32,194 nucleotides of DNA from positions 1 through 32,194 of IMG/VR virus record IMGVR_UViG_3300025828_000094; one strand, given 5' to 3'. The notes below the pieces were generated by a model. The model saw nothing but the letters and a program-made list of their open reading frames with translations. It had not been told where the DNA came from and ran no database searches. The stretch comes from a virus. Below, one piece after another: positions 28,176 through 32,194 of this stretch (its first letter is position 1; each line of letters opens with the position of its first letter). The position numbers were made by a program, and so were the translations under genes.

Positions 28176-28231
28176 TTGTTTTGGTTTTAAAGTTCACAAA
28201 CAAATATACACATTTCAGGTTTACCAACGTC

Positions 28232-28339
28232 TCATTTCAAAGGTCTCTTTGTTATACAGTAGATACAAGTTCTCAACAGCGATAATCCCAATGGTAATGG
28301 CTTACCACAATTATTACATGTGGGTTTGAATTCTTTCAT
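28232..28339 (-). CDS. Mini zinc-ribbon protein (35 aa)
   Basis: A 35-residue ORF starting MKEFKPTCNNCGKPLPLG and ending TCIYCITKRPLK, with C8-x2-C11 and C25-x2-C28. Two CxxC knuckles 14 residues apart are a textbook zinc-ribbon arrangement, unlikely to arise by chance in so short an ORF. It fills the gap between the coiled-coil gene and the 108-aa acidic gene, on the same strand. Many phages carry such minimal zinc ribbons as transcription or translation modulators, but the role here is unknown. The stop is TGA. Confidence 0.6.
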   Translation of the reverse strand: MKEFKPTCNNCGKPLPLGLSLLRTCIYCITKRPLK

Positions 28340-28369
28340 AAACCAAAGATAGAACTTCTAGGTAAAGGA

Positions 28370-28696
28370 TTATATTTCTATACCAATAGTCTCAGGGTAC
28401 ACCTCATGTAGCACCTTACGGAGCTCGATACATTTATCATAATCCTCCCGAGGCTCCTCACTATAATACTTAATCACCGCGATGATCACATCCTTATTAA
28501 ATCCTTCATTAGGATCATGCGCCAATACGATAGGAGAGCTCTTCCCGTCTATATCCTTCAGCAAATCCTCAAAATCCAAATCCTGGGTTATAAAGAGATA
28601 AGAAGTATAAAAAGCCTCATCAATGATCTCATCCTCTATAAGAGACTTATCCCCCTCAGGCAAGTTATCAAAATCATCCAACCAATCATCTCCCAT
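28370..28696 (-). CDS. Acidic hypothetical protein (108 aa)
   Basis: From the ATG at 28696 it reads MGDDWLDDFDNLPEGDKSLI, then EDEIIDEAFYTSYLF. It is strongly acidic in the first half and ends PETIGIEI. No known family is recognised. The longer reading to 28711 would use a TTG and would run into the promoter-like motif at 28701-28712, so the ATG is preferred. It is the first gene of the minus-strand block after the divergent gap. If the motif is a promoter its transcript would be leaderless or nearly so. Strong acidity suggests a DNA mimic or an inhibitor of a DNA-binding protein, but this is only a possibility. Confidence 0.65.
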   Translation of the reverse strand: MGDDWLDDFDNLPEGDKSLIEDEIIDEAFYTSYLFITQDLDFEDLLKDIDGKSSPIVLAHDPNEGFNKDVIIAVIKYYSEEPREDYDKCIELRKVLHEVYPETIGIEI

Positions 28697-29366: not shown

Positions 29367-29504
29367 ATGGCTCAAGACCAATTTATTTCCCAGACTTCTG
29401 CAGACAAACAAGGTTTCTATACCGTGACAATGCAGAAACCAGACGGTACAAGACATACCGTTAGAATGAATGTCTTTGGTGCAAACTGGAAACTGTTTGT
29501 GTAA
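29367..29504 (+). CDS. Small hypothetical protein (45 aa)
   Basis: It reads MAQDQFISQTSADKQGFYTV, then TMQKPDGTRHTVRMNVFGAN and ends WKLFV before a TAA. The alternation of hydrophobic and polar residues suggests a small beta sheet. The ATG follows a leader ending CATATACATACCTC, and the ORF lies between two hairpin-rich spacers like the other plus-strand genes. Another frame (29246-29464) is longer but reads like noise (many Cys, Pro and Arg, no leader). No family recognised; real but minor gene likely. Confidence 0.5.
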   Translation: MAQDQFISQTSADKQGFYTVTMQKPDGTRHTVRMNVFGANWKLFV

Positions 29505-29762
29505 ATTGACATAACCCCTAAGAAGCGTTGACCACACCTAAGAGAGCTTGGCATGTGCACCTTGTTGCCAAGCTTGCTCAGAAACGTAGTGTGTAGTGGA
29601 GGGGTTTCTTAAGCCTAACCACATATTGCTACGTCTTTGTAAGAAAACTATGCAATTTGTGTACGTAAGTGCTTGATTGTCAAGGTGTGACCAACACTAC
29701 CCACATTCACCCACTTTTTACCACTGTAAATACTAACCCAAGCGTAAACAATATATATCGCT
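29505..29762 (+). other. Noncoding spacer with strong hairpin
   Basis: 258 nt between two small ORFs. A 9-bp stem, AGCTTGGCA/TGCCAAGCT (29545-29553 with 29566-29574, 12-nt loop), stands out. It is flanked by AACCCC (upstream) and GGGGTT (downstream) that could close a larger domain. The distal part is C/A-rich and ends in the ACTAACCCAAG leader of the next gene. It may be a 5' UTR element or a small RNA. No clear promoter was found. Confidence 0.4.
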
Positions 29763-30028: not shown

Positions 30029-30066
30029 CTGTAGTTAGAACTAACCAAGTATAAATACCAAGCCCT

Positions 30067-30375
30067 ATGCCTGAGACTACCTCTTACATTGCTGATTACT
30101 TTGTCCATGACAATGGTCTTATCTCTTATATCTCTGTTATGGAGGAAGGAGACAATACAATTGATTGCCGGATGGAGTGCGTTGAAGGTTCTGCTATTAT
30201 GTTGGATCAGATCCAGGAGTGTATGAAGGCTGATGTTCCTGAAGCTGAGCCTTCCAAAACTTTCAGAGGTCTTGTTCATACTTACAAATGCTATAACCGT
30301 TTGTTTGTTGATCCCAGAGTGTGTCCTCTTTGTAATGAAGAGCTTCAAGATACGTGTAGCCTGATTAGCTACTAG
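30067..30375 (+). CDS. Hypothetical protein with C-terminal CxxC motif (102 aa)
   Basis: It reads MPETTSYIADYFVHDNGLIS, then a beta-rich middle (CRMECVEGSAIMLDQIQECM) and a C-terminal CPLC-type knuckle within KCYNRLFVDPRVCPLCNEEL. CPLC plus nearby Cys residues could bind zinc. The ATG is preceded by ACTAACCAAGTATAAATA, about 38 nt after the T-run of the previous terminator, so a separate promoter is probable. The following 164 nt are a hairpin-rich spacer. No known family is recognised. Confidence 0.6.
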   Translation: MPETTSYIADYFVHDNGLISYISVMEEGDNTIDCRMECVEGSAIMLDQIQECMKADVPEAEPSKTFRGLVHTYKCYNRLFVDPRVCPLCNEELQDTCSLISY

Positions 30376-30539
30376 TCCGTGGCCCACGTGGATGAAGGGA
30401 ATGAGTGGTGATTCACTCTAACGGGGAAAAGCGTGGGAGAGAGACCCACGTGTAACTACTGACGGGTAGTTATCTATTAAGTTAGCTTTCAATCAAACTC
30501 CAGCCGTGCGGCTAGTCTTATAATCGTGGACGCACGGTT
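30376..30539 (+). promoter_or_regulatory. Hairpin-rich leader before the 43-aa gene, with alternative stems
   Basis: 164 nt without an ORF. Stems: GAGTG/CACTG-type arm (GAGTG 30403-30407 with CACTC 30414-30418), CGTGGG/CCCACG (30432-30450) and TAACTAC/GTAGTTA (30453-30472). Then comes AGCC-GUGC-GGCU (30502-30513), which competes with a 7-bp stem CCGTGCG/CGCACGG (30504-30510 with 30531-30537). The competing stem ends 2 nt before the ATG, so switching between the two could control translation. Confidence 0.5.
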
Positions 30540-30671
30540 ATGAGCATCTCTACCGCTATGAAAAAGATTCGTGACACCCAGAAGCAACGTGCAGAGATGC
30601 AACAGCTTCGCAGACTGACACGCACTCGTGTCAAGCCTAACAAGAAGAAGGATTGGGCACCTTCAGAGTAA
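30540..30671 (+). CDS. Small basic hypothetical protein (43 aa)
   Basis: The product is MSISTAMKKIRDTQKQRAEM followed by QQLRRLTRTRVKPNKKKDWA and PSE. It is highly basic and helical, and could bind nucleic acid. Its ATG starts only 2 nt after a 7-bp stem arm (CGCACGG), so the leader RNA probably controls access. Another reading frame overlaps this region but uses a weak context. The ORF ends 22 nt before the ATG of the 91-aa gene. No family recognised. Confidence 0.5.
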   Translation: MSISTAMKKIRDTQKQRAEMQQLRRLTRTRVKPNKKKDWAPSE

Positions 30672-30693
30672 TAACCTAAAGCTGGCGAGCAAG

Positions 30694-30969
30694 ATGTACG
30701 CAATGGAAATGACAGTAGAGTTTATTAAGACTGTTGACATGCACAGCAAAGCTAACCAGGCTTTGTACAAAACTGATGATAAGGACTATCCTTTCATTGT
30801 TGTTAGTGGTATTAACAACCAACACGCTCATGAGGTAATGGCATTTCCTGCTGATGCAGAAGGTGAGGTTACAAGTTGGGGTGAGATTGCTTGTGTCAGA
30901 TACACTACAAGTCATGAGGACTTCTTTGGTGAGCTTGGTTGGCAACAAACTAAAACCGAAGACCAATGA
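30694..30969 (+). CDS. Hypothetical protein (91 aa)
   Basis: I use the ATG at 30694 (MYAMEMTVEFIKTVDMHSKA). A longer frame upstream to 30628 would overlap the basic ORF and adds a composition unlike the rest. The product continues NQALYKTDDKDYPFIVVSGI, NNQHAHEVMAFPADAEGEVT and ends with WGEIACVRYTTSHEDFFGEL followed by GWQQTKTEDQ, a compact alpha/beta composition. Its TGA overlaps the ATG of the membrane protein (ATGA, 30966-30969), so the two are translationally coupled. No family recognised. Confidence 0.65.
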   Translation: MYAMEMTVEFIKTVDMHSKANQALYKTDDKDYPFIVVSGINNQHAHEVMAFPADAEGEVTSWGEIACVRYTTSHEDFFGELGWQQTKTEDQ

Positions 30970-31190
30970 GAAATCCTGTGACCAAAAGAATCATGCGTGG
31001 TATACTGACGTGGTTTGCTGTAACAACGCTACCACTAATAACCATCAGCATGGTATGGTGTGCCACTCTTGGTGCATTTGACTTCTTTGCCTGTATGCAT
31101 TCCGGTGCTGTAATGTTCTTTACTGCAATGTTCTCTGTTGCCGGAATACTTGTTGCAATAGGTATTGATGAAGAACTCAATCCTTTTTGA
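30966..31190 (+). CDS. Small two-pass membrane protein (74 aa)
   Basis: Two hydrophobic segments are visible: ILTWFAVTTLPLITISMVWC (about residues 13-32) and MFFTAMFSVAGILVAIGI (about 50-67), joined by a loop with Cys and His. The N-terminus is basic (MRNPVTKRIMRG) and the C-terminus acidic (DEELNPF), so an N-in, C-in hairpin is likely. Small two-helix proteins in phages can be holins, superinfection-exclusion factors or membrane anchors; none can be chosen here. Lysis would be unusual this far from the amidase gene and on the other strand. It is coupled to the upstream 91-aa gene. Confidence 0.6.
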   Translation: MRNPVTKRIMRGILTWFAVTTLPLITISMVWCATLGAFDFFACMHSGAVMFFTAMFSVAGILVAIGIDEELNPF

Positions 31191-32150
31191 ACTGACATGT
31201 GTTATCATGTCTATAGGTTGTGTAACCCGCAGGGATCAAGCGGGTATGCAACCTGAAGCATACGTTATTGTTACCCTCAGAGTTTAGATACTCATGGTGT
31301 ATGCGTTAAGCCTGCTTGACAGGTTACTGAAACAATAGGTCAGCCTTCGTGACCATAGGATAATCCAGTGATGGAATAAAGTATATCCCTTAAGAAAGGA
31401 TATGCCATGCATTAGCATGCCACTGAAAGGTAGTTACATATCTATATCTTGGAATGGCCCTACAGGGTATAAGAGATATAGACACCATTAGGAAGTGGTG
31501 TTGAGTGAGAAATCACAATAAGAATGTAGCTAGGTAATGGTAGTACCAGTCGCCAACTGGGGATCCATTATCAATGTTTATGTTTGATGTTGCAAGAAAT
31601 TGCATGTCATGATTAAACATAGTGATTAGACTTGGCAGTCGAAAGCAGGGTGGAGTTGATAGCTAAACTACTCAAAAGGTAGCATGCTATACAATCAACA
31701 ACCGCTTCACTCACTATTCCTTTTCTTATCTAAATAGCCTACGGGCGGCAACTAGACAAAGAGCAAAAGTGTTGTTGAGTATTGAGTTTACAATGTTCTT
31801 ATTGTGCTGTAATATGCACAGACTCTAAGGCCGCAAGCCACAGAGTAAGCGGAACGAAGTATCATTGCATTTGGTGTGAGGCATCACACTTATCCCGGCA
31901 GGGAGGTCAGTGAGAAAAGGGAAGTTATATAACTCAATACAGGGATGGCGGACATCTAAATCCGTGAACATCGTATCTACCTTCAGTAATGGAGGTGTGT
32001 GTATGTGGGGAAACCTGCTAAAATGATATGCGACATGGGCCAACACTCAGCCCACTGGTGTCATGCAAAAGAAAAGCCTTCACGTGGCGCATGATGTAAG
32101 TAAGCTTATGCTGAAACTAATTTTCTTACTCACCATTTAAACCTAAACCT
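31191..32150 (+). ncRNA. Candidate large structured noncoding RNA region (about 960 nt)
   Basis: No credible ORF lies here; the only long frame is a 73-codon minus-strand one. Nested stems abound. Examples: GACATG/CATGTC (31194-31211); GGTTG+ACCCGC stacked hairpin (31216-31253); GCATAC/GTATGC (31258-31304); CAGTG/CACTG enclosing two hairpins (31366-31425); GTGA-GAAA-TCAC (31505-31516); an 8-bp outer plus 5-bp inner stem (31533-31572); ATGTTTA/TAAACAT enclosing a TGCAA-GAAA-TTGCA hairpin (31574-31620); a three-part stem (31655-31699); GCC-UACG-GGC (31737-31746); ACTCT/AGAGT over GGC/GCC (31822-31846); GTGTGA/TCACAC (31874-31889); TGGGC/GCCCA (32036-32054); and TCATGC/GCATGA (32061-32094). GNRA and UNCG caps support folded RNA. 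It may be one RNA or several, reminiscent in size of GOLLD or ROOL RNAs, but no homology is claimed. Confidence 0.6.
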
Positions 32151-32194
32151 ATGCCTAGAAGAGAATTCCATCCAATCAACGGTATATACCTTAC
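32151..32194 (+). CDS. Start of an unknown gene cut by the right edge (partial)
   Basis: ATG at 32151 opens a frame reading MPRREFHPINGIYL with no stop before the edge. It follows a TTTAAACCTAAACCT leader resembling those of the other plus-strand genes, and its second codon is Pro, as in the genes at 29763 and 30067. Only 14 codons are visible, so the function cannot be judged. Confidence 0.5.
   Translation, partial: MPRREFHPINGIYL

Follow-up and report, generated by a model that had tools for sequence, protein, structure and literature searches.

We analysed a window of 32,194 nt (positions 1 to 32,194 of the IMG/VR virus record IMGVR_UViG_3300025828_000094); "the window" below always means this whole stretch. 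Three papers, PMC12286853, PMC10879173 and PMC7567579, are cited on the basis of parts of their text.

A noncoding gap in a phage genome

The window carries genes for a terminase, a portal protein, a major head protein and an endolysin on its minus strand, each recognised by PHROGs matches. The 80 closest terminase relatives that we kept from viral contigs were 79-100% identical to it, and some of these contigs measure 116-118 kb. Among named phages, 65 records matched the terminase at E<=1e-20; the 20 best of these, mostly crAss-like phages, share ~24-26% identity.

The interval 31191-32151 (961 nt) is the largest of 40 gaps in our own gene list, which have a median of 15 nt; nine of them are longer than 100 nt, and the four above 153 nt measure 165, 298, 341 and 961 nt. 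It follows a plus-strand ORF of 74 aa (30966-31190), whose stop codon ends at 31190 and which would be expected to share a transcript with the gap, and it precedes a plus-strand ORF that begins with the ATG at 32152. This downstream ORF (32152-32194) is truncated by the window end. It is whole, at 102 aa, in the one record that we found to share the region, IMGVR_UViG_3300029568_000024 (G001; 73,486 bases), where it occupies positions 529-834 of locus L004. G001 is 93.5% identical to the window over 30065-32194. The upstream protein had no match in PHROGs or among named phages, and the complete downstream protein, also without a homologue among named phages, was found among viral contigs in G001 only. 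A search for RNA ligase (PF09414) in 6 records found none.

Although the rest of the window is densely coding, it is scarcely credible that 31191-32151 is an unrecognised protein-coding region, and we ruled out a hidden gene: in 31191-32150 all six frames carry 15-25 stops, no plus-strand ORF inside the gap is longer than 43 aa (the longest ORF fully within it, 73 aa from a GTG start, is on the minus strand at 31825-32046), and the changes between the window and G001 track base pairs rather than codons. The original prediction of an ORF-free gap of nearly 1 kb was therefore borne out.

The 960 nt from 31191 fold with a minimum free energy (MFE) of -292.1 kcal/mol, compared with -257.3 (sd 9.2) for 20 dinucleotide shuffles (z -3.8). 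The two domains described below gave z-scores of -5.34 (31191-31647) and -2.42 (31648-32059). Ten 420-nt coding controls ranged from +1.54 to -4.04, so the value for the 3' domain is by itself unremarkable. Six nested stems had been proposed for the region; the MFE structure closes five of them exactly (31216-31253, 31533-31572, 31574-31620, 31655-31699 and 31822-31846), and the sixth, 31366-31425, folds instead as a few separate stems. With a simple scan we located one terminator-like site within the 5' domain (31244-31263) and another upstream (31057-31078); the same scan gave none on the plus strand past 31263, including the interval up to the next ORF.

Other noncoding intervals were also observed in the window. 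The 298-nt gap at 29465-29762 folds with z -2.4, and the 341-nt gap at 28176-28516 lies at the divergence of minus-strand and plus-strand gene blocks and may hold promoters. At 30376-30540 (plus strand), a noncoding sequence that folds stably (z -2.6 and -2.2) is nearly identical in G001. A hairpin within it (about 30502-30513) has one pair, 30503/30512, in which G-C and C-G are exchanged between the window and G001 (by eye), and one lost pair. This sequence, which had no Rfam match at E<=5, may be another small RNA or a leader.

A diverged GOLLD RNA

A covariance search with the GOLLD model (RF02032), a check that the original prediction had proposed, matched 31648-32053 on the plus strand across the entire 416-position model; the match scored 83.8 bits (E=1.5e-21, or 5.6e-22 when a shorter stretch was searched). 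The score is below the Rfam gathering cut-off of 150 bits, which is a database inclusion cut-off and no biological feature, and we file the RNA as a diverged member. With the curated Rfam cut-offs nothing was reported for the region; diverged members thus escape the default cut-offs, as this one was missed at the gathering threshold. The authors of the GOLLD cryo-EM study gathered their sequences at E<=1e-5 (PMC12286853).

For comparison we used 11 other viral GOLLDs that score 180-300 bits, ten of them found by pattern and one by chance; they share the search motifs and are a biased sample. The GOLLD model covers the 3' domain (31648-32053, model positions 1-416), where the alignment places 92 model pairs. 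Both partners are present in 83, and 72 of these 83 are standard pairs. The long-range helix that joins 31780-31788 to 31931-31939 retains 9 of 10 model pairs as standard, and the terminal hairpin (GGGC/GCCC; 32037-32053) retains 3 of 3. The weak helices are two inner ones with mostly gapped partners (1/5 and 2/4) and another with 9/14. A variable segment at 31714-31760, unpaired in the model, corresponds to the GOLLD cage-interior linker, and its position fits that of 497-538 in the env-38 GOLLD. In the cryo-EM study the 833-nt env-38 RNA has a 5' region (1-420), a 3' region (421-833) and a disordered linker (497-538), and it assembles into a 14-mer cage (PMC12286853).

GOLLDs carry a large and structured 5' domain of lower conservation, and many of them exceed 800 nt overall. 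Upstream of the model match lies a 5' domain of 457 nt (31191-31647), for which no Rfam model exists and whose start we set, by assumption, at the upstream stop codon. It contains a motif at 31500-31525, composed of GUUGAG, a GAAA-capped hairpin (31505-31516) and AAUAAGAAU, that is common to other GOLLD 5' domains. The sequence AATAAGAA occurs upstream of 7 of the 11 other viral GOLLDs, against ~0.6 expected over all; the motif was picked after blast matches had pointed to it. In 7 of the 11, AAUAAGAA follows a GGAA-capped hairpin (by eye) 193-211 nt before the 3' domain; the corresponding distance in the window is 131 nt.

We compared the base pairs of the window with those of G001, whose own GOLLD scores 72.6 bits. 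Fourteen substitutions in the 5' domain touch seven pairs: two pairs carry compensatory changes, four have one-sided changes and still pair, and one is broken. When the substitutions were placed at random, a mean of 4.9 pairs broke; P was 0.0006 for the double changes and 0.0048 for the breaks. This test draws on two sequences and on the MFE structure predicted for the window. The 3' domain MFE structure gave 0 double changes, 7 pairs kept and 9 broken. Seven of the broken pairs involve the linker, which is unpaired in the GOLLD model, and the other two stem from an alignment gap at 32053-32054; the linker also holds 17 of the 30 differences between the two 3' domains. These counts leave out two MAFFT alignments (A2 and A3) that were too loose.

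The covariance match of the 3' domain, the shared motif in the 5' domain and the compensatory changes together fit a reading of 31191-32059 as one diverged GOLLD RNA of 869 nt. The original prediction was right to see a giant noncoding phage RNA here. It had found no direct match and had suggested that the RNA might belong to a new class or be a tandem of several RNAs; the E-value covariance search supplied the match, and one 869-nt GOLLD fits better than either suggestion. A new giant RNA class unrelated to GOLLD, or a row of small RNAs, would agree with a score under the gathering threshold and with the named phages, in which DNA similarity was found only to the ribozyme core described below (in cr272_1 and cr273_1). 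We nevertheless judge it very improbable in view of the full-length model match, the 5'-domain motif and the matching domain sizes; we rejected a new class on the covariance match.

GOLLD is not a constant trait of this phage group, as among 50 records searched, which comprised G001 and 49 loci from the set of 80 terminase relatives and included many fragments, only G001 had a convincing match; one other record matched at E 0.83. A search of 48 bacterial genomes (50 of 59 pattern-picked stretches) returned 0 GOLLDs and is uninformative, because no control was detected either. G001 also has a second weak match to the GOLLD model on its minus strand (C1:12150-12317; 20 bits, E=1.1e-4, 168 nt over the whole model), which is probably due to chance since it is absent from the Rfam scan of that locus (L169) at E<=0.5.

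A predicted ribozyme next to the GOLLD 3' end

Directly behind the GOLLD, at 32060-32127 on the plus strand, lies a predicted HDV-like ribozyme of the theta type, recognised from a match to the CPEB3 model, a structural descriptor and a comparison of 13 sequences. The giant RNA had been anticipated by the original prediction; this separate element had not been named. The predicted self-cleavage site, U|G at 32059-32060, is 6 nt past the end of the GOLLD model match (4 nt in G001). Helices P1 (32060-66/32089-95, GUCAUGC/GCAUGAU, with a G.U pair at the cut), P2 (32069-75/32121-127, AAGAAAA/UUUUCUU), P3 (32076-78/32086-88, GCC/GGC, closed by L3 UUCACGU at 32079-85) and P4 (32103-105/32110-112, AGC-UUAU-GCU, flanked by GUAAGUA and GAAAC) come in double-pseudoknot order, and all pairs of P1 to P3 form. 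J4/2 (CUAA) starts with C32117, the catalytic C as predicted by layout. Read by position, P1.1 consists of a C-G and a U.U, and hence of a single Watson-Crick pair.

The CPEB3 ribozyme model (RF00622) scored 19.0 bits in the window (E=0.038) and 20.6 bits in G001, both under its gathering cut-off of 35. The two ribozymes agree at 67 of 68 bases, and the sole change is unpaired, in J1/2; they thus offer no covariation of their own. In the MFE structure of the window the 5' strand of P1 pairs elsewhere, an alternative pairing that is lost in G001.

The descriptor was built on general rules for HDV-like ribozymes and was written after we had seen the elements of the window and cr272_1. It requires a 7-bp P1, a 3-bp P3, the L3 pattern, C-N-R-A in J4/2 and a P2 of at least 5 bp. 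In 229 records (2.24 Mb, both strands) it found only the window locus and its G001 copy, and 48 Mb of random sequence, both strands, gave 0 matches. A targeted scan of 74 stretches with P2 of at least 4 bp yielded 16 loci with descriptor matches (15 new ones and L004 of G001). Together with two phage matches, 17 further descriptor-positive loci were available.

Theta ribozymes, a group of HDV-like ribozymes known from gut phages, have been described with their cut placed at tRNA 3' ends, and 526 theta matches not beside tRNAs were left with no assigned role (PMC10879173). Three distinct ribozymes at six of our loci (L262; L265, L274, L279 and L300, which are identical; and L293) have the predicted cut 0, 2 and 1 nt, respectively, from a tRNA 3' end called by ARAGORN. 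This is the published theta arrangement, and it supports our rule for placing the cut. At L254 the ribozyme follows a sequence that resembles a tRNA arm (by eye), and for 11 of the 17 loci ARAGORN called no tRNA at the cut; these distances leave out cr272_1 and cr273_1. Membership of the tRNA-associated theta subgroup requires that the cut lie no more than 5 nt from the 3' end of a tRNA; the window has no tRNA and is outside it.

In the comparison of 13 sequences, the agreement in P1-P3 pairing and in L3 is circular, because all but cr272_1 had passed a descriptor that demands P1-P3, and ten of the 13 were chosen for sharing GCCTTCACGTGGC (nine by pattern, cr114_1 by similarity). Features free of this circularity are tRNA adjacency, P4 and the GUAAGUA/GAAAC flanks, as well as the G.U at the cut. 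The G.U, which the descriptor does not require, is present in 12 of 13; cr272_1 lacks it and fails the descriptor. The flanks recur in six sequences (once as AUAAGUA), and there P4 varies in sequence yet pairs (AGC/GCU, CC/GG, AUAGGU/ACCUAU, AUUUGCA/UGCAAAU). P1 was taken one base early in six sequences, so that the G.U is their second pair and P1.1 is off by one; by our own reading P1.1 is C-G in 12 sequences and U-A in cr272_1. A second match in L293 (at 3487, probably due to chance), L320 and copies were left out of the 13. Three descriptor-positive loci (L279, L311 and L321) have no HDV-family match at E<=1.

Several of the compared phages carry other RNA elements nearby. Positions 1186-2074 of the cr114_1 locus (L321; NC_055897.1), a single noncoding stretch of a gut crAss-like phage, contain RAGATH-6 (below cut-off), RAGATH-7 and a hatchet ribozyme, then the HDV-like ribozyme. 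A RAGATH-1 hammerhead (73.2 bits) lies upstream of the HDV-like element in cr272_1 (L002, 2770-3062), as does a weak twister-P1 match in cr273_1 (L003, 2473-3062); both HDV-like elements have the same P4 as the window. Record G125 has a GOLLD (L323, 218 bits) and, ~1.75 kb upstream, a theta-type ribozyme (L262) exactly at the end of a tRNA-Ser.

We then considered what stands behind GOLLD elsewhere. Nine of the 11 compared GOLLDs have a tRNA or tRNA-like element that begins 6-27 nt past the end of the model match: 8 nt in L239, 6 in L240, 10 in L241, 12 in L242, 6 in L243, 7 in L244, 27 in L245, 15 in L246 and 12 in L164. The elements of L241 and L243, called by ARAGORN only, with the anticodon undetermined, and not reported by Rfam, may be degenerate tRNAs retained just for processing; the element of L242 is a low-scoring tRNA match in Rfam (32 bits). 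Of the remaining two, L165 has no tRNA and no descriptor-positive ribozyme in its 3.4-kb locus, and L323, which the descriptor scan left out, has no tRNA for ~490 nt downstream and a tRNA match inside its linker. In G001 the nearest tRNAs found, tRNA-Arg and tRNA-Leu, are ~6 kb downstream. GOLLD has been noted to lie often, not always, near tRNA genes (PMC12286853).

In the window, the ribozyme occupies the slot that a tRNA or tRNA-like element fills behind nine of these 11 GOLLDs. Further scans for a second pair of GOLLD and ribozyme gave G001 only, and at 93.5% identity the two records represent one lineage.

A possible route to the GOLLD 3' end

We consider it likely that this locus of a crAss-like phage encodes a diverged GOLLD of ~869 nt followed by a ribozyme (32060-32127) that cuts and so sets the GOLLD 3' end. 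The GOLLD would be transcribed within a longer plus-strand message, and cleavage between U32059 and G32060 would leave its 3' end 6 nt beyond the terminal hairpin. The known HDV mechanism yields a 2',3'-cyclic phosphate, which would then be the 3' terminus of the GOLLD, and the ribozyme would stay attached to the mRNA of the next gene as its 5' leader. RNase P cuts at tRNA 5' ends and could form the same GOLLD end at the adjoining tRNA in the majority of the compared viral GOLLDs; in this lineage the ribozyme would stand in for the tRNA 5' end and RNase P. Such a replacement is the simplest reading of a ribozyme at the tRNA position in a locus without a tRNA. The trimmed RNA may assemble into a multimeric cage, as is known for env-38.

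The ribozyme could instead serve the downstream gene, with the GOLLD upstream by happenstance; cleavage would give that mRNA a structured 5'-OH leader, protecting it or tuning its translation. Only 24 nt separate the end of the ribozyme from the ATG of that gene, and the HDV-like elements of cr272_1, cr273_1, cr114_1 and cr125_1 lie in noncoding DNA and have neither a GOLLD match nor a tRNA at the cut. We regard this as unlikely, given a cut 6 nt (4 nt in G001) past the GOLLD hairpin, just where tRNAs stand behind 9 of the 11 compared GOLLDs, though both roles may hold because a single cut makes both ends. It is also improbable that the ribozyme is dead or decaying, the remnant of a tRNA-ribozyme cassette, with host nucleases making the GOLLD 3' end. 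Its activity is a prediction from two close relatives, and two of the 11 other GOLLDs exist without a tRNA close by; however, the helices, the G.U, L3 and the catalytic C are all intact, and the ribozyme has kept all but one base in G001 while the flanking noncoding sequence changed.

Maturation of the GOLLD by the ribozyme thus remains our preferred reading, and the placement suggests a rule in which GOLLD 3' ends are made by the next element, usually a tRNA 5' end and here a ribozyme. Such maturation would also offer a natural protein-free route to precise GOLLD RNA for the assembly of cages, and it would assign one function to those theta ribozymes that lack a neighbouring tRNA, a question left open by PMC10879173. 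As a tentative possibility rather than an expectation, phages may more generally employ self-cleaving ribozymes to form the 3' ends of large structural RNAs, with the ribozyme here having taken over from the tRNA and RNase P at the end of GOLLD. A giant cage-forming RNA would then mature from an mRNA without a protein enzyme, and cage assembly might depend on, or be timed by, the ribozyme cut.

GOLLD and theta ribozymes are each already known. We know of no function for GOLLD. Within the literature covered on GOLLD, HDV-like ribozymes and phage RNAs, cited in part, we found no description of a ribozyme at a GOLLD end; the parts of PMC12286853 drawn on here hold no discussion of GOLLD 3'-end maturation, and the word GOLLD is absent from the main text of PMC10879173. 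The ribozyme of the window may stand unnamed in the supplementary list of that paper, as IMG/VR is among its data.

The RNA resembles GOLLD (RF02032) in that the complete model of the 3' domain matches, in its long-range helix and terminal hairpin, in the variable linker and the 5' motif, and in its phage setting and total length of more than 800 nt. It measures 869 nt against 833 nt in env-38, with a 5' region of 457 against 420 nt and a 3' region of 412 nt. It differs in scoring 83.8 bits rather than 180-300 bits and in having an HDV-like ribozyme, and no adjoining tRNA, at its 3' end. A likeness of description, not of sequence, exists to the abundant ~800-nt noncoding RNA of phage ICP1, which its authors compare with GOLLD and ROOL and which likewise fills a ~1-kb ORF-less gap not beside tRNAs; for that RNA the parts of PMC7567579 cited here report no family match and no 3'-end ribozyme. 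The ribozyme shares with CPEB3 (RF00622) an identical L3 and, as aligned, the arrangement of P1, P3 and P4, whereas CPEB3 is a mammalian family whose P1, P2 and P4 sequences are unrelated to those of the window. With the theta ribozymes of PMC10879173 it shares the HDV-like layout, on which, rather than on those authors' motif, we base the class assignment, as well as the C at the start of J4/2, the phage setting and a predicted cut at the 3' end of a structured RNA, which is a tRNA there and a GOLLD here.
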